Part shown: one piece after another, positions 12,701 through 19,768 of the stretch
Layout of the letters: each line of letters begins with the position of its first letter
How positions within the stretch are numbered: position 1 is the stretch's first letter
DNA from: an uncultured Lachnospiraceae bacterium
GTDB lineage: Bacteria > Bacillota > Clostridia > Lachnospirales > Lachnospiraceae
Assembly (NCBI GenBank): GCA_947178125.1
Contig: CAMWXB010000006.1
Span: 1-64,000 of the forward strand
Length of the DNA: 64,000 bases
Reading direction: 5' to 3'
The notes under the pieces: model-generated
The model's input: the letters and a program-made list of their open reading frames with translations, nothing else
Databases searched by the model: none
Told to the model about the DNA's origin: nothing
Translations under genes and position numbers: made by a program

Positions 12701-13480
12701 ATGGCAGTTACAGAAGCAGCGAAAAGATATCATGAGAAAATGTTTCCCGATTATAAATCTAAGTTTATAGAGACAGACCCGGAATTTATCGAGCGTTTTG
12801 ATAATTTTGCATTTGACGAAGTCGTAAATCAGGATGATCTTGACGGCAGGACACGGTTCATGGCAATCCTCGCGACACTGCTTGGATGCCAGGGGACGGA
12901 TGAATTCCGCACCATGCTTCCTGCAGCGCTTCGTTTTGAGGTTACTCCTGTGGAAATTAAAGAAATCGTTTATCAGGCGACAGCATATCTGGGAATGGGG
13001 CGCGTATTCCCGTTTCTAAAGATTGTCAATGATGTGTTTGAAGAAAAGGGAATCGAACTGCCGCTTCCGTCACAGGCAGCTACGACCACGGAAAACCGCA
13101 GGGAAGCCGGGACGCAGGCACAGGTGGATATCTTTGGTGAGGGAATGCGGGACTTCTGGAAGTCCGGCCCGGAGGAGAGCCGTCACATCAATTTATGGCT
13201 GGCGGATAACTGTTTTGGCGATTACTATACCCGCACCGGCCTGGACTATCAACAGCGGGAAATGATCACGTTCTGTTTCCTGGCGGCACAGGGCGGCTGT
13301 GAGCCGCAGCTTACCAGTCATGCGGCAGCAAATATGAGGATTGGGAATGACAAGGCGTTTCTGATTAAAATCATCTCCCAGTGCCTGCCTTATATCGGCT
13401 ATCCGAGGAGTCTGAATGCGCTGCGCTGTGTAAACGATGCGGCGGCGAAGATGGAGAAAGAGGATACGGAGAAAAATTGA
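12701..13480 (+). CDS. Carboxymuconolactone decarboxylase family protein (two domains)
   Basis: This 259-residue protein consists of two consecutive CMD/AhpD-like helical domains. The first contains FMAILATLLGCQGTDEFRTMLPAAL and the second REMITFCFLAAQGGCEPQL. ATG 12701 has AAGGAGG 12 to 6 bases upstream; the in-frame ATG at 12662 overlaps the previous stop but lacks a good site. The AhpD-type CxxC redox pair is not present, so a gamma-carboxymuconolactone-decarboxylase-like or still uncharacterised role is more likely than peroxidase. Co-transcription with an Fe-S aldo/keto reductase suggests one catabolic or redox pathway. Confidence 0.88.
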   Translation: MAVTEAAKRYHEKMFPDYKSKFIETDPEFIERFDNFAFDEVVNQDDLDGRTRFMAILATLLGCQGTDEFRTMLPAALRFEVTPVEIKEIVYQATAYLGMGRVFPFLKIVNDVFEEKGIELPLPSQAATTTENRREAGTQAQVDIFGEGMRDFWKSGPEESRHINLWLADNCFGDYYTRTGLDYQQREMITFCFLAAQGGCEPQLTSHAAANMRIGNDKAFLIKIISQCLPYIGYPRSLNALRCVNDAAAKMEKEDTEKN

Positions 13481-13494
13481 GCGAGGAGGCAGTC

Positions 13495-13911
13495 ATGAAT
13501 ATACTTGTAATAGATGCACAGGGCGGCGGTATCGGGAAGCAGCTCGTCTCTGCAATAAAAGAAAATATCCAGGGCACTGTTGTTACCGCTGTCGGAACAA
13601 ATTCTGCGGCAGCTTCCGCTATGTTGAAGGCGGGTGCTGATAACGCGGCGACCGGAGAAAATGCCGTCGTCGTGAATAGCAGAAAAGCGGATGTGATCGT
13701 TGGCCCGATCGGTATTGTGATCGCGGATGCTCTATTCGGAGAAATAACGCCCATTATGGCGAAAGCTGTTGCGCAAAGCAGCGCGAAGCGCATTTTAATT
13801 CCCATCAATCATTGTGATAATATCGTGGTTGGCGTGAGTGATTTAAATATTCGAAAACTGATTCAGGATGTGATTTCCGAACTGCAGAAGAATCAGATTC
13901 GGTGTGTTTAA
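13495..13911 (+). CDS. DUF3842 family protein
   Basis: This 138-residue protein opens MNILVIDAQGGGIGKQLVSA, a Rossmann-like strand and glycine loop, and contains VVVNSRKADVIVGPIGIVIADALFGEIT and an end of NHCDNIVVGVSDLNIRKLI. This matches what I know as DUF3842, a small family of Clostridia with no assigned function. GAGGAGG at 13483-13489 fixes the start. It lies 14 bases after the CMD gene and about 300 bases before larE. The link to either the reductase operon or the lar operon is from position only. A nucleotide or cofactor-binding role is inferred from the glycine loop. Confidence 0.75.
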   Translation: MNILVIDAQGGGIGKQLVSAIKENIQGTVVTAVGTNSAAASAMLKAGADNAATGENAVVVNSRKADVIVGPIGIVIADALFGEITPIMAKAVAQSSAKRILIPINHCDNIVVGVSDLNIRKLIQDVISELQKNQIRCV

Positions 13912-13964
13912 GAAAAATCAGCGTAATGAAAGCATAATGAAAAATCAGTGTAAGCTCCAGCCTA

Positions 13965-13992
13965 TTGACTTTTGGCCTGAGTAGTGTATAAT
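13965..13992 (+). promoter_or_regulatory. Sigma-A promoter of the lar leader
   Basis: TTGACT (13965-13970) and TATAAT (13987-13992) are separated by 16 bases, a near-consensus promoter. It would start transcription near 13999, about 220 bases before larE, so the larE mRNA carries a long leader. Confidence 0.75.
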
Positions 13993-14064
13993 ATCCACGA
14001 TAGCAGGAAGCTGTCGGTCGTAACGCAGAAGCGTTAAATGGAATAGTGCGTTTTATATTGATGC

Positions 14065-14143
14065 AATAATGATACAACGTAAAATTAAAATAATGATACA
14101 ATGTAAAATAATGGTATAATGCAAAATAATGGATATGGCGTAA
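14065..14143 (+). repeat. 18-bp AT-rich tandem repeats in the lar leader
   Basis: Units of the form AATAATGATACAATGTAA lie at 14065-14082, 14089-14106, 14107-14124 and 14125-14143. A 6-base insertion separates the first two and the fourth is diverged and one base longer. They lie between the two 5' hairpins and the terminator and could form a spacer or a binding array. Confidence 0.65.
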
Positions 14144-14159
14144 ATAGTATGCTTAGAAA

Positions 14160-14203
14160 GCACACAAATCCTCTGAAGGGGAAATGTGTGCTTTTTGTTT
14201 TTT
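14160..14203 (+). terminator. Intrinsic terminator directly upstream of larE
   Basis: GCACACA (14160-14166) pairs with TGTGTGC (14185-14191), extended by AAA/TTT, with inner CC/GG pairs around a TCTGAA loop. It is followed by TTTTTGTTTTTT. This is a strong intrinsic terminator located before, not after, the operon. Confidence 0.85.
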
Positions 14204-14220
14204 GAAAGCGAGGTGGTCAT

Positions 14221-14967
14221 TTGGTCATACAGGAGTTTTTTGAACGATATCCAAAGGCAGCGATTGCTTTTTCCGGCGGTGTAGATTCGGCTTATCTTCT
14301 TTATGCGGCAGTAAAATATGCAGATAAGGTGAAAGCCTATTATGTAAAATCCGAATTCCAGCCGCAATTTGAACTGGATGATGCGCTGCATCTGGCGAAA
14401 GAACTGGGGGCGGACATGCAGGTGCTTACGCTGAAAGTGCTTTCGGTGCCTCATGTAAATACTAATCCTTCCGAACGTTGCTATTACTGTAAAAAGGCAA
14501 TCTTCGGTGTAATCACAGCAGCTGCGGCGGCGGATGGTTTTACAGTGCTTCTGGATGGAACGAATGCCTCTGATGATGCCGGCGACCGTCCGGGGATGCG
14601 TGCGCTGTCAGAATTGTCCGTGCTTTCACCGCTTCGGGAATGCGGATTGACCAAAGAACACATTCGTCAGCTTTCAAAAGAAGCGGGACTATTTACATGG
14701 GATAAGCCCGCATATGCCTGCCTTGCAACGAGAATCCCGACCGGTGAAGAGATAACCGCGGATAAATTGTCCGCAACGGAAATGGCGGAGGACTATCTTT
14801 TTTCGCTCGGCTTTACAGATTTTCGCGTGCGCTCTCAGGAAGGTCATGCGCGGCTGCAGGTGCCGGAGGCGCAGTTGGGACTCTTGTTGGAACGGCGCGA
14901 GGCCATTCTGGCAAAGCTGAAAGGATATTATAAGACGGTATCGCTGGATTTGGAGGTAAGAGGATGA
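14221..14967 (+). CDS. larE: LarE, pincer cofactor sulfur-transfer enzyme (three-cysteine type)
   Basis: This 248-residue PP-loop ATPase has SGGVDS at residues 18-23 and GDRPGMRA in the middle. LarE adenylates the carboxylates of the pyridinium biscarboxylate intermediate and inserts sulfur. Lactobacillus plantarum LarE uses one sacrificial Cys; this protein has Cys87 and Cys90 (RCYYCK) plus Cys167 (ACLATR). That is the three-cysteine set of the variants reported to hold a [4Fe-4S] cluster, so it may be catalytic rather than sacrificial. The start is TTG 14221 with GAGGTGG 4-10 bases before it. It overlaps larB by 4 bases (ATGA). Confidence 0.92.
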   Translation: MVIQEFFERYPKAAIAFSGGVDSAYLLYAAVKYADKVKAYYVKSEFQPQFELDDALHLAKELGADMQVLTLKVLSVPHVNTNPSERCYYCKKAIFGVITAAAAADGFTVLLDGTNASDDAGDRPGMRALSELSVLSPLRECGLTKEHIRQLSKEAGLFTWDKPAYACLATRIPTGEEITADKLSATEMAEDYLFSLGFTDFRVRSQEGHARLQVPEAQLGLLLERREAILAKLKGYYKTVSLDLEVRG

Positions 14968-15710
14968 ATACGGATATCAGAAGATTATTGGAGGGCGTCA
15001 GCGATGGAAGTGTTTCTATCGACGATGCGCTTTTGAAACTGAAAGTAAAACCATTTGAAGATATTGGCTACGCCAAAGTCGATATGCACCGGAAACTGCG
15101 TCAGGGAACGGCAGAGGTGATTTACGGTGCGGGAAAAACACCCGAACAGATTATTGGAATTATTGAAACCATGCTGAAAAATGGGCAGAACACCATTCTC
15201 ATTACCCGGCTTACCGAAGAAGCCGCCGCAATCGTCGGAGAAGCCTATTCAATCAATTACCATAAGGATGCCCGCTGCGGTATTCTTGGGCAGGTACCTG
15301 TTCCTGACGGAATCGGTAAGATTGTCGTAGCGACAGGCGGTACAAGCGATATTCCGGTTGCGGAAGAGGCGGCGTTGACAGCCGCCGTTCTTGGGAATGA
15401 AGTTGTCCGATTGTATGATGTCGGTGTTGCCGGGCTTCACCGGACGCTCGCCCATCTTGATGAGATCATGAGCGCCAGCGTGATTATTGCCATTGCGGGG
15501 ATGGAGGGAGCGCTTGCCAGTGTGCTTGGCGGGCTTGCCGATTGCCCGGTCATCGCGGTCCCGACAAGCGTTGGATACGGGGCATCGTTTGGCGGTCTCT
15601 CGGCGCTTTTGGCCATGTTGAACTCCTGTGCCAGCGGGGTATCGGTTGTCAATATCGATAACGGTTTCGGTGCGGGATATCTTGCCAATATGATCAATCA
15701 TATGAATTAA
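14964..15710 (+). CDS. larB: LarB, nicotinic acid adenine dinucleotide carboxylase/hydrolase
   Basis: This 248-residue protein has a PurE/AIR-carboxylase-like C-terminal domain: ATGGTSDIPVAEEA, GVAGLHR, GMEGALASVLGGL and PTSVGYGASFGG. LarB carboxylates the pyridinium ring of NaAD at C5 and hydrolyses the phosphoanhydride, giving the biscarboxylated mononucleotide used by LarE. Cys222 in AMLNSCAS matches Cys221 of the Lactobacillus enzyme, which forms the substrate adduct. The ATG overlaps the larE stop, so translation is coupled. Full length for the family. Confidence 0.95.
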   Translation: MNTDIRRLLEGVSDGSVSIDDALLKLKVKPFEDIGYAKVDMHRKLRQGTAEVIYGAGKTPEQIIGIIETMLKNGQNTILITRLTEEAAAIVGEAYSINYHKDARCGILGQVPVPDGIGKIVVATGGTSDIPVAEEAALTAAVLGNEVVRLYDVGVAGLHRTLAHLDEIMSASVIIAIAGMEGALASVLGGLADCPVIAVPTSVGYGASFGGLSALLAMLNSCASGVSVVNIDNGFGAGYLANMINHMN

Positions 15711-15803
15711 GGGATTAAGAAACACATTTTGTACAATGGAAACCTTCGAAAGCATTGTCTCGTGATTACCTGACCGGAGGAACAGAAAAAAGGAGGCACA
15801 AAA

Positions 15804-17156
15804 TTGCGAACACTATATTTGGACTGCGGAATGGGTGCGGCCGGCGATATGCTGACAGCCGCATTGCTGGAACTGCTGCCTGATTCCGATGAATTTGTAA
15901 AAGAACTCAACGCGCTCGGTATACCCGGCGTACAGTTCCAAAAGGAGCCGTCTGTAAAGTGCGGCATTACAGGAACGCACATGAGCGTAACGGTAAACGG
16001 TGAGGAAGAAGGAAGTCATGACCACAATCATCAGGGCCATGACCATGAGCACAGTCATGATAAGCACGACCACGGTCACGACTGTCATGGGCATGACCAC
16101 AGCCACGGCTGCCATGATGACGACCATGACCATAGCGACGAGTATGACCATAGCCACGAGTATCATAGCGACGAGCATGACCACAGCCACGCCCATCACC
16201 ACCACAGCAGTCTGCATGATATCGAGCATATCATACGGGGGCATCTTTCTCTGTCCGAAAAGGTACAGAATGACGTCATGGCAGTTTACAGGCTGATCGC
16301 AGAGGCGGAAAGCCATGTTCACGGTGTTCCGGTGACGGAAATCCATTTTCATGAAGTGGGAACGATGGATGCGATTGCGGATATCACAGCAGTCTGCATG
16401 CTGATTGACCGTCTGTCTCCAGACGAAATCGTTGTCTCACCTGTCCATGTCGGTAGCGGTCAGGTCAAATGTGCGCATGGCATTCTTCCTGTTCCGGCGC
16501 CTGCTACGGCTCATATCCTGAAAGATGTTCCCATCTATGGCGGAAGCATCCGGGGCGAATTGTGTACGCCTACCGGCGCGGCTTTGCTGAAACATTTTGC
16601 GGCCAGATTTGACAGTATGCCGGCCATGAAAACACAGGCGATTGGCTACGGTATGGGAAAGAAAGATTTTGAAGAAGTGAACTGTGTCAGAGCGATGCTT
16701 GGAGAAACGGACAGCACAGGAGATGAAATCTATGAACTGAGCTGCAATGTGGATGATATGACCGGTGAGGAGGTCGGCTTTGCCGTAGAACGGCTTTTTG
16801 CTGCCGGCGCGCTGGATGTGTATACGATGCCGATCGGCATGAAAAAATCCCGTCCCGGCGTGCTCATTCATATCATGTGCCATAAGGCAGACAGGGAAAC
16901 GATGATTCGAACGGCTTTCAAATATACGACCACCATTGGCATTCGGGAAAGCAGGCTAAACCGTTATGTGCTCGAACGTCATATCGAAACGTGCGAAACA
17001 CCTTACGGCGCGGTCCGCTGTAAAGTTTCATCCGGCTACGGCGTTGAACGCAGAAAGTACGAATATGATGATCTTTCCCGCATTGCATGGGAAAAGGATA
17101 TCAGTATTTCTGAAGCGGCTCATCTTGTAGACGAAGAGGTATCAACAGATGAATAG
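15804..17156 (+). CDS. larC: LarC, nickel insertion cyclometallase, with long His-rich insert
   Basis: This 450-residue protein begins LYLDCGMGAAGDMLTAALL, as LarC does, and has the later motifs EIHFHEVG, VHVGSGQVKCAHG, CTPTGAALLKH and LSCNVDDMTGEE. LarC uses CTP to insert nickel into the dithiolated pincer. Residues 72-134 (16017-16205) are an insertion with 27 histidines, mostly His-Asp pairs, a probable nickel store. In Lactobacillus larC1 and larC2 are joined by a ribosomal frameshift; here the two parts are one continuous frame. The start is TTG 15804 with AGGAGG at 15791-15796. Its end overlaps the ABC binding-protein start by 8 bases. Confidence 0.95.
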   Translation: MRTLYLDCGMGAAGDMLTAALLELLPDSDEFVKELNALGIPGVQFQKEPSVKCGITGTHMSVTVNGEEEGSHDHNHQGHDHEHSHDKHDHGHDCHGHDHSHGCHDDDHDHSDEYDHSHEYHSDEHDHSHAHHHHSSLHDIEHIIRGHLSLSEKVQNDVMAVYRLIAEAESHVHGVPVTEIHFHEVGTMDAIADITAVCMLIDRLSPDEIVVSPVHVGSGQVKCAHGILPVPAPATAHILKDVPIYGGSIRGELCTPTGAALLKHFAARFDSMPAMKTQAIGYGMGKKDFEEVNCVRAMLGETDSTGDEIYELSCNVDDMTGEEVGFAVERLFAAGALDVYTMPIGMKKSRPGVLIHIMCHKADRETMIRTAFKYTTTIGIRESRLNRYVLERHIETCETPYGAVRCKVSSGYGVERRKYEYDDLSRIAWEKDISISEAAHLVDEEVSTDE

Positions 17157-18735
17157 CAAGAGAATATTGTCATCCCTTTTGGCAGCCGTCCTTCTTTTGA
17201 CGATGACGGCCTGCGGTAAGGAGGATACCGCGGGTTCCAGAGACAGTGTGGTGATCGCCATTGGCTCGGAGCCGGAAACGCTCGATCCTACTAAGGGCTG
17301 GGGACACGGCAATTCGCCGATCGTCCAGAGCACACTGGTAAAGTACACTGCCGATTTGACTTTTGAAAACGATCTGGCGACCAGATATGAGCTGTCCGAC
17401 GACGGCCTGACGTGGACATTCACCATCCGCGATGATGCGGTATTTACCGACGGTGAGAAAGTTACAGCCGCCGATGTGGCTTTCACATTGGAAACAGCCA
17501 GGGACGCACAGGGCTCTGTTGACCTGACCTACATGGAAAGCGCCGTTGCGCGGGATGATACAACGGTTGTTATTACGTTGTCCCGGCCTACCTCTATTTT
17601 TCTCAACACGCTTGCGTCCATCGGTATCGTACCCGAACACGCTTACGGTGAGGATTACGGCACAAATCCAATCGGCTCCGGCCCTTACAGGTTTGTTGAG
17701 TGGAAAGCACAGGAACAGATTGTTTTTACCGCCAATGAAGATTACTATGGCGGTGTTCCTGCAATCAAGCAAGTAACGGTTGTCTTTATGTCCGAAGATG
17801 CCGCGCTCGCGGCCGTTCAGGCAGGAGCGGTCGATGTCGCGTATTCTTCGGCCGCCCTTGGCACGACGGCGGTGGAAGGATATCATATGGAAGCGATTCC
17901 TTCTGCTGACAACCGGGGATTCACCCTTCCCGTTTTGCCGAATGAGGGGAAAACTGCGGAAAACGGAGCGCCTATAGGAAATGACGTCACCTGTCATCTT
18001 GAAATACGTCAGGCGATCGCCTATGCGCTCGACCGCCAGCAGATTGCCGATACGGTGCTGAACGGTTTCGGCCGGCCCGCTTACTCTGAAAACGACGGTA
18101 TGCCGTGGAACAATCCCGAAGTAGTGATTGAGACGGATGTTGAATATGCAAAGAAGCTGCTCGCGGATGCCGGATGGGTCGATGCCGATGGGGATGGAAT
18201 CGTTGAAAAGGACGGCCTGAAGGCGGAATTTTCCTGCGTATATCCGTCCGGAGATTTTGTACGTCAGGCTGTTGCCATGGCGGCGGCAGAGCAGGTAAAG
18301 GAAATCGGCATTCAGATCAATGTGGAAGGTACAAGCTGGGATGAAATCATGCAGCGGATGTTTTCCGAAGCTGTGATGATGGGCTGGGGTTCTGCAATCC
18401 CTAATGAAACCTACTACCTGTATCGTTCCGAAGGCGCTCTTTTTGATGACTTTTATAATCCGGAAGGTTATGGGAGCGATGTGACGGATGGTTATCTCAA
18501 TGCGGCTATGGAAGCCCTGACTGTGGAAGAGGCCAATGCAAACTGGCAGAAAGTACAGTGGGACGGCACGACCGGCACCGCCATGCGGGGGGAGTGCCCG
18601 TGGGTATGGATCGTTAATCTGGATCATGTGACCTATGTCCGCGATGGGCTTTCTATCGGTGAGCAGCCGATTCACGGTCATGGACATGGTTTGCCGTTGA
18701 TTCAGAACCTGCAGGAGTGGACTTGGGCGGAATGA
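17149..18735 (+). CDS. NikA-like ABC transporter substrate-binding lipoprotein
   Basis: This 528-residue extracytoplasmic binding protein of the Opp/NikA (SBP_bac_5) family has a lipobox LLLTMTACGK at the N-terminus, then SEPETLDPTKGWG and NPIGSGPYRFVEWK. A HGHGHG stretch lies close to the C-terminus (PIHGHGHGLPL), a plausible metal ligand. ATG 17149 lies within the end of larC in another frame, with GAGG upstream. Translational coupling to larC and the absence of peptidases strongly suggest nickel or a nickel chelate as cargo rather than peptides. The metallophore, if any, is unknown. Confidence 0.88.
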   Translation: MNSKRILSSLLAAVLLLTMTACGKEDTAGSRDSVVIAIGSEPETLDPTKGWGHGNSPIVQSTLVKYTADLTFENDLATRYELSDDGLTWTFTIRDDAVFTDGEKVTAADVAFTLETARDAQGSVDLTYMESAVARDDTTVVITLSRPTSIFLNTLASIGIVPEHAYGEDYGTNPIGSGPYRFVEWKAQEQIVFTANEDYYGGVPAIKQVTVVFMSEDAALAAVQAGAVDVAYSSAALGTTAVEGYHMEAIPSADNRGFTLPVLPNEGKTAENGAPIGNDVTCHLEIRQAIAYALDRQQIADTVLNGFGRPAYSENDGMPWNNPEVVIETDVEYAKKLLADAGWVDADGDGIVEKDGLKAEFSCVYPSGDFVRQAVAMAAAEQVKEIGIQINVEGTSWDEIMQRMFSEAVMMGWGSAIPNETYYLYRSEGALFDDFYNPEGYGSDVTDGYLNAAMEALTVEEANANWQKVQWDGTTGTAMRGECPWVWIVNLDHVTYVRDGLSIGEQPIHGHGHGLPLIQNLQEWTWAE

Positions 18736-18772
18736 TCTTATATCCGCGAAAGACAGTAGAGTGGAGATTGTT

Positions 18773-19768
18773 ATGAAAGGAACGGTTGGGCGTCTGACCC
18801 GCATTTTTGTTATCAATAGTGTCAGGATCCTTACGCTGTTACTGGCGGTAAGCGTGATTACGTTCGTACTGGTCAGTGCGTCGCCAATCGATCCGGTGCG
18901 GCAGTATATCATGGGACTTGGAACAGCTGTTTCTCCTGAGCAGCGGGCGGAAATCGAGGATTACTGGGGTGTGAATGAACCGCCGGTGGAACGTTATTTC
19001 GGCTGGATGTCGGAACTTTTGAAGGGTAATCTGGGAGAATCCGCCCTGTACCGCCGACCTGTTGCGGATATCATCAGAGAACGGTTCTTAAATTCACTGG
19101 CGCTGATGCTGTGCGCATGGGTGCTGTCCGGCGGGATTGGTTTCACGGTTGGATGTGTCATGGGGATGTATCGGGACAGACTGCCGGATAAAATCCTGAA
19201 AAAAGTATGCTATGTGATCAGTTCGATTCCGACGTTTTGGCTCGGACTGGTTTTTCTTCTGGTATTTGCCGTATGGCTGAAATGGTTTCCCATCGGATTT
19301 TCCGGTCCCATTGGCGTTCTCAGGGATGAGGTCACAATTTGGGAGAAACTTTATCATTTGATCCTGCCGGCTTTTACATTGAGCCTCATGTCGTTTGCCA
19401 ATATTGCACTGCATACCCGCCAAAAGCTGGCGGATGTTTTGAACAGCGAATATGTCCTGTTTGCAAGGGCGAGAGGAGAAGGAGGATGGATGATTCTGCG
19501 CCGCCACGGATTGCGGAACATTCTTCTTCCTGCATTGACTTTACAGTTTGCATCCTTTGCGGAATTGTTCGGCGGTTCGGTCATGGCGGAGAATGTGTTC
19601 AGCTATCCAGGGCTTGGCAGTGCGGTATCCGCCGCAGGCTTGAACGCGGATGTGCCGTTACTTCTCGGCGTAACTTTGTTTTCCGCTTTATTTGTCGCTG
19701 TCGGCAATATGACCGCAAATCTGCTTTACGGAATCATTGACCCGCAGATACGGGAGGTGGACGGATGA
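18773..19768 (+). CDS. NikB-like ABC transporter permease
   Basis: This 331-residue membrane permease is of the DppB/NikB type: an N-terminal helix RILTLLLAVSVITFVLVSAS, a periplasmic loop with YWGVNEPPVERYFGWM and GNLGESALY, five further membrane segments, and the EAA-loop region ARARGEGGWMILRRHGLRN. ATG 18773 is favoured over an in-frame GTG at 18761 because GTGGAG lies about 7 bases upstream of it. It overlaps the next permease by 4 bases. It forms the import channel with the next gene. Confidence 0.9.
   Translation: MKGTVGRLTRIFVINSVRILTLLLAVSVITFVLVSASPIDPVRQYIMGLGTAVSPEQRAEIEDYWGVNEPPVERYFGWMSELLKGNLGESALYRRPVADIIRERFLNSLALMLCAWVLSGGIGFTVGCVMGMYRDRLPDKILKKVCYVISSIPTFWLGLVFLLVFAVWLKWFPIGFSGPIGVLRDEVTIWEKLYHLILPAFTLSLMSFANIALHTRQKLADVLNSEYVLFARARGEGGWMILRRHGLRNILLPALTLQFASFAELFGGSVMAENVFSYPGLGSAVSAAGLNADVPLLLGVTLFSALFVAVGNMTANLLYGIIDPQIREVDG

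Follow-up and report, generated by a model that had tools for sequence, protein, structure and literature searches.

The question raised by this locus is whether, and by what means, the long structured leader in front of larE controls the genes that follow it. The window, by which we mean the whole analysed stretch of 64,000 nucleotides from an uncultured Lachnospiraceae bacterium, contains a larE-larB-larC cluster together with a putative importer. A preliminary description had proposed that the leader attenuates the transcription of these genes. We computed the anatomy of the leader, its conservation and covariation, the exclusivity between one of its hairpins and the terminator, the kinds of genes found behind related leaders, and the linkage of these leaders to a gene of the family DUF3842.

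All the genes in question lie on the plus strand. The larE gene (14221..14967) has a TTG start and matches NCBIfam TIGR00268 with 256.1 bits, above the cut-off, as does larB (14964..15710) with NF033503 at 286.3 bits. The larC gene (15804..17156), which comprises both LarC1 and LarC2, matches TIGR00299, NF052512 and PF01969, above the NCBIfam cut-offs, and includes a long His/Asp-rich insert (16014-16208) that is likely to be a metal-binding stretch. It is followed by a nikA-like SBP gene (17149..18735), which matches PF00496 (SBP_bac_5) above the cut-off and NikA TIGR02294 below it, and then by ABC-transporter-like ORFs, named by eye, that extend to 22131.

Anatomy of the larE leader

The near-consensus promoter previously described was found as a sigma-70-type sequence, TTGACT-16-TATAAT, at 13965..13992, with 11 of 12 consensus matches. 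It ranks best among the 14 sites returned by a promoter scan of 13000-19000, and its predicted transcript start is at P1, the first hairpin. The same scan also returned promoter-like sites within the leader, for example ATGATA-16-TATAAT ending at 14120. Both of the 5' hairpins that had been reported are present: P1 (13998..14016) has arms CGATAGC and GCTGTCG around the loop AGGAA, and P2 (14021..14036) has arms TAACGC and GCGTTA around AGAA. Three AT-rich repeats of 21 nt, also noted before, occupy the linker at 14065..14127, with start-to-start spacings of 24 and 18. We found no support for giving them a role, since the distance between P2 and P3 varies and no such repeats were seen by eye in the related larE leaders inspected; they look incidental.

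The preliminary description overlooked P3, and also that P4 makes up a fourth hairpin of this type. P3 (14147..14165, loop TAGAA) is the putative antiterminator, and P4 (14169..14182, loop TGAA) doubles as the tip of the terminator. The strong terminator that had been claimed is there, at 14157..14203, with a predicted fold of -19.4 kcal/mol, arms at 14157-14174 and 14177-14194, and T runs at 14192-14196 and 14198-14203, leaving a gap of 17 nt to the larE start. It was missing from the list produced by a simple terminator scan, probably because an internal loop breaks its stem.

The fold of the leader (13990-14215) is better than that of 200 out of 200 shuffled sequences, with a z of -4.4. Because P3 and the 5' arm of the terminator have nucleotides 14159-14165 in common, the two structures are mutually exclusive. 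P4 is compatible with both states, as the tip of the terminator and as the partner of P3. Forcing the leader to keep P3 gives a fold of -41.4 kcal/mol vs -51.8 kcal/mol for the terminator fold, which is about 10 worse. The locus therefore has the parts of an attenuator, namely a promoter, a leader and an intrinsic terminator before the gene, and a conserved alternative hairpin that excludes the terminator.

Conservation of the four-hairpin array

The pattern of four hairpins with like loops emerged when the 450 nt preceding related larE genes were read. Two models were built, R1 from 10 sequences and R2 from 25. The genome search with R1 matched 37 of 299 genomes of the family at E <= 0.01, of which 13 were kept after inspection; those left out appeared by eye to be chance terminators or coding matches, and matches without a locus and L097 were left out uninspected. 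R2 matched 22 of 391 genomes of the class, of which 21 were kept (G358 was dropped), 22 of 392 genomes of the order, all kept, in a sample that overlaps the class set, and 5 of 239 genomes of the phylum, with the source genome counted in. One locus, L140, was retained on its score, hairpins and neighbour genes. The family, class and order searches combined gave 50 array genomes, and 66 distinct arrays were collected in all, that is, a set of 65 plus L265. A promoter of the type described above is found at 44 of 65 arrays, with the -10 element ending 4-35 nt before the match, a count made without a shuffled control. An array (E 7.9e-5) was also seen in another family of the phylum, on the minus strand of L269 at 1501-1636, before a PIG-L-family ORF and a NikA-similar ORF.

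The preliminary description had made its reading depend on whether the 5' hairpins are kept upstream of other larE genes. They are kept at some of them: at E <= 0.001 R2 found the array upstream of 15 of the 80 other larE loci fetched, 12 of the 15 having gone into building the model, and found none upstream of the remaining 65. Two of the array-bearing larE loci (L022 and L023) are Treponema contigs.

Covariation, which had been suggested as a check, was examined in alignment A5, consisting of 67 rows (66 distinct) that were found and fitted by a model carrying this structure, after removal of an antisense row (L139 +) and a duplicate (L138). In this alignment 95.8% of cells are paired vs 72.2% in shuffled controls, 21 of 23 pairs present changes on both sides, and the covariation score is 0.747 vs 0.267 for shuffled and at most 0.153 for slid alignments, so that within these model-fitted rows the stems do covary. 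A smaller alignment, A4, agrees (0.653 vs 0.257). We also exchanged the 3' arms around GAA between arrays, a control that uses a matched choice of stem, with the hairpins located by the model alignment. The mean stems were 5.48 for P1, 5.50 for P2, 5.63 for P3 and 5.82 for P4, vs 2.08, 2.56, 3.90 and 3.97 respectively for the swapped arms. P3 passes this control (5.63 vs 3.90, maximum 4.47) though it is absent from the model structure.

GAA lies within the loop of P1 in 59, of P2 in 55, of P3 in 58 and of P4 in 46 of 65 distinct arrays, and canonical loops number four in 21 arrays, three in 31, two in 12 and one in a single array; in these loop counts the stem is the best hairpin, which biases the shuffles of that analysis, and the swap control matches this choice. 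P1 and P3 have mostly five-base loops (A-N-GAA) and P2 and P4 mostly four-base loops, closed mostly by C-G, with T-G and T-A also closing P3. Within pairs the loops are spaced closely alike, 17-22 nt from P1 to P2 (50 arrays) and 18-21 nt from P3 to P4 (40 arrays), and the spacing between the pairs, from the P2 to the P3 loop, is 35-132 nt among 63 arrays. The array thus looks like a docking site of two hairpins that is present twice. At L098 and L220 the model chose a poorer P1-P2, and better ones are found further upstream. In all 64 of 64 arrays compared, the terminator stretch is predicted to be more stable than P3, with medians of -21.3 vs -5.5 kcal/mol.

Genes following the arrays

At 64 of the 66 loci a target gene of recognised kind begins a short way downstream of the array. 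The nearest one, named by similarity to one representative per class, is LarE in 27 cases, an unannotated membrane pair in 13, an ECF-S protein in 9, a NikA-type SBP in 6, LarB, LarC and a methyltransferase in 2 each, and FecB-like, FecCD-like and CbiM proteins in 1 each; two arrays have none. The CbiM, FecCD, Peripla_BP_2 (FecB-like), ECF-S and SBP_bac_5 assignments were confirmed on chosen members, and the second SBP type (L090, L120, L143) was named by similarity only. Methyltransferase genes follow the arrays L119 and L155, the one at L119 resembling CpaM below cut-off.

The membrane pair consists of small proteins starting MACFxVPxAEAV and MTLLxTVFAA (L118, L141, L142, L266), and the pair of L190 had no Pfam or NCBIfam match. 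It precedes larE in L197 and L266, and at L197 (genome G366) larE-larB-larC follow it, making the pair a candidate nickel importer. The ECF-S proteins, seen for instance behind arrays L126, L127, L128, L131, L144 and L148, belong to PF12822 according to the L203 copy and have a CPxHIPVLLCGFxCG-like stretch; they are candidates for a metal-related ECF transporter.

Nickel is the thread that links the lar genes with the NikA-like and CbiM importers. The NCBIfam name of the CbiM proteins is cobalt transporter, and the FecCD and Peripla_BP_2 proteins could have B12 or siderophore as their cargo. Such family labels leave nickel and cobalt undivided. A profile search gave no LarC match in 9 of the 50 array genomes, which makes it unlikely that NPN is the only signal; seven of these nine have an ECF-S gene next to the array.

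Linkage of DUF3842 to the arrays

Upstream of the larE promoter, at 13495..13911 on the plus strand, the window carries a gene for a 138-aa protein of the family DUF3842 (PF12953; 168.8 vs a Pfam cut-off of 28.5 bits), with a predicted Rossmann-type fold. DUF3842 is found directly upstream of 38 of the 66 arrays, ahead of seven gene classes, two of these copies being fragments (L116 and L148). The 38 DUF3842-array units are followed by LarE (18), the membrane pair (7), ECF-S (7), NikA (2), LarB (1), LarC (1) and FecCD (1), and once by the contig end; the other 28 arrays have no DUF3842 upstream, some of them lying at contig ends. Gene clustering over 28 stretches, of which 27 have an array, placed DUF3842 immediately before the array in 12, and no other cluster recurred in that position.

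The linkage is also apparent between genomes. A DUF3842 match was obtained in 49 of the 50 array genomes (a partial one in G685) vs 3 of 30 array-negative ones, which were taken from no-match listings and are not a random draw. In the class sample it is present in 20 of 21 array genomes vs 115 of 370 array-negative ones. Among genomes with LarC over the cut-off, it is found in 40 of 41 with an array vs 2 of 20 without, and therefore DUF3842 does not simply follow the lar genes. A more sensitive search of 40 genomes scored as array-negative, half of them with DUF3842 and half without it, gave a single match (33.6 bits, E 0.0037). It lies in G019, which is among the three of the 30 array-negative genomes that have DUF3842. 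Inspected by eye, this weak match shows GAA-looped hairpins P1-P3 and a promoter, and a NikA-like SBP gene follows.

On a tree of DUF3842 the array labels cluster, the no-array label requiring 4 changes vs 24.5 when shuffled. The G019 copy is on the array side, with a weak dividing branch (52/57), and the copies of the array genomes G629 and G871 are solely on the non-array side. DUF3842 is a wider family than the arrays: at 35 DUF3842 loci, mostly of array-negative genomes, no tandem GAA hairpins were found in 1.5 kb flanks on one strand. Array-negative copies in other clostridial families (L206, L236-L264) lie beside varied ORFs that by eye appear housekeeping-like. Array genome G474 had no DUF3842 match; the P2 and P3 loops of its array (L133) are altered, to an extent not unusual enough to count. 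The DUF3842 proteins of the array clade are near-neutral (mean charge -0.8), which is unusual for an RNA binder. A weak array-like leader (L268:1501-1609, E 1.4e-5) precedes DUF3842 itself, and autoregulation is possible in this case; P1, P2 and P4 of this leader lack a clearly canonical form.

A model for attenuation and its alternatives

The attenuation of larE-larB-larC and the importer suggested in the preliminary description is backed by the conservation of the array at 15 of 80 larE loci, by its presence before other metal-related genes and by the antiterminator hairpin, and we have little doubt that the leader attenuates transcription in a nickel-related regulon. According to the model that we propose, the transcript would open with P1 and P2, whose loops are A(N)GAA or NGAA, and after a linker of variable length the second pair, P3-P4, would follow, with P3 overlapping the terminator. 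Because the terminator is more stable than P3 in every array compared, the RNA alone should terminate before the target gene, and P3 needs to be favoured. We infer this default-off state, and with it the sign of the switch, from predicted energies. A trans-acting factor might then grip the GAA loops pairwise and hold P3-P4, in which case the terminator could not close and RNA polymerase would read on. The most likely factor would be DUF3842, whose Rossmann fold suggests that it responds to a nucleotide or dinucleotide reflecting the status of nickel or NPN. Beyond the default-off state, what we infer here is that a protein acts and not a ligand, that DUF3842 binds the RNA, and which metal and signal are involved.

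These parts of the model deserve different degrees of confidence. Separate hairpins of like form, a fixed spacing within pairs, a variable linker and the DUF3842 linkage are more what one would expect of an RNA recognised by a protein than of one that binds a ligand, and it is fairly likely that the attenuation is mediated by a protein. That this protein is DUF3842 seems to us about evenly balanced, and we would advance with some hesitation, as slightly the less probable view, that DUF3842 is the first of a new kind of RNA-binding regulator of antitermination, which would sense a nickel-linked nucleotide signal, grip GAA-loop hairpins in pairs and serve a clostridial (and Treponema) RNA-level nickel regulon. 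Taken as a whole, the proposal that a GAA-loop array attenuates a nickel-acquisition and nickel-pincer regulon, with DUF3842 as its most likely factor, is on balance probable.

Perhaps the array is instead a true riboswitch, in which paired GAA-loop hairpins pack together and bind Ni2+ or NaAD/NPN, with DUF3842 merely a co-located nickel protein. The small conserved loops, tandem hairpins and fixed in-pair spacing, reminiscent of guanidine-II, are what such an RNA might have; its targets are metal-related, it does not depend on ANTAR proteins, and the near-neutral DUF3842 is missing from array genome G474. However, there is neither a junction nor a large conserved core, conservation being mainly that of the loops and closing C-G pairs, two pairs separated by a linker of 35-132 nt are hard to reconcile with one pocket, and it would be odd for a mere member of the regulon to keep its place directly before the array irrespective of the target gene. 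We consider a riboswitch unlikely. It is more improbable still that the attenuator is bound by another RNA-binding protein, DUF3842 being a companion, an enzyme or sensor partner related to nickel. DUF3842 is not basic and is missing in G474, which would agree with this explanation, as would the resemblance of the dual-hairpin anatomy to ANTAR targets (PMC3369931). Nevertheless, in the 28 stretches clustered no gene cluster other than DUF3842, seen in 12, recurs just upstream of the array, and the obvious alternative, ANTAR proteins, can be rejected as a general factor: they were found in 35 of 50 array genomes vs 28 of the 30 array-negative ones, the 15 array genomes that have none include five that are 98-100% complete, and the array loops are too short.

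The preliminary description had also offered a stand-alone small RNA. It would measure about 205 nt and end at 14203, larE being transcribed from another promoter. A promoter and a terminator do bracket the array, and larE could also be served by promoter-like sequences within the leader, for instance the one that ends at 14120. This explanation does not account for an antiterminator that is exclusive with the terminator, for the recognised target genes that 64 of the 66 loci have close behind the array, or for a gap of merely 17 nt between the T run and larE, and we regard it as very improbable. The attenuator, with DUF3842 as its candidate factor, is the explanation that we retain. If it is true, many of the gut Clostridia with nickel-pincer cofactor synthesis would have RNA-level metal control in common, candidate new importers would be named in the membrane pair and the ECF-S protein, and the family DUF3842 would gain its first testable function.

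Comparison with known systems

Attenuators worked through tandem hairpins are known as a class. The earlier statement that the leader matches no known metal riboswitch holds as far as Rfam is concerned: no Rfam family reached its cut-off anywhere in the window, none came near it in the leader, and no gathering match was found at the array in 20 array loci. The guanidine-II (mini-ykkC) riboswitch is built of a pair of small hairpins, each with the conserved loop ACGR, and a spacer between them. The array is similar in its small hairpins with a shared conserved loop and in its spacer, but differs in having NGAA or ANGAA instead of ACGR, four hairpins, different genes and no Rfam match. The NiCo (czcD) riboswitch, a four-way junction, is associated with efflux genes; the array shares with it the RNA control of nickel-related genes, but precedes uptake and cofactor genes, is formed of separate hairpins and has no Rfam match.

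A close parallel may be drawn with ANTAR proteins, which antiterminate by holding dual hairpins, one of which overlaps the terminator (eut, nas and ami leaders; PMC3369931). The 13-mer given there for ANTAR targets is AGCAANGRRGCUY, with hexanucleotide loops that have A1 and G4. The array is like these targets in its tandem small hairpins with purine-rich loops, one overlapping the terminator, and its AGC-A(N)GAA-GCU resembles the 13-mer. It is unlike them in that its loops are mostly of 4-5 nt and not six, it has two pairs and not one, P3 overlaps the base of the terminator with P4 forming its tip, and the genes are nickel-related. In Rfam and the open-licence PMC literature searched, the array family, its targets and its likely partner had no counterpart, and in that literature neither the name DUF3842 nor its link to the RNA array was found. 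If DUF3842 is the binder, it would set beside the ANTAR proteins a new protein class.
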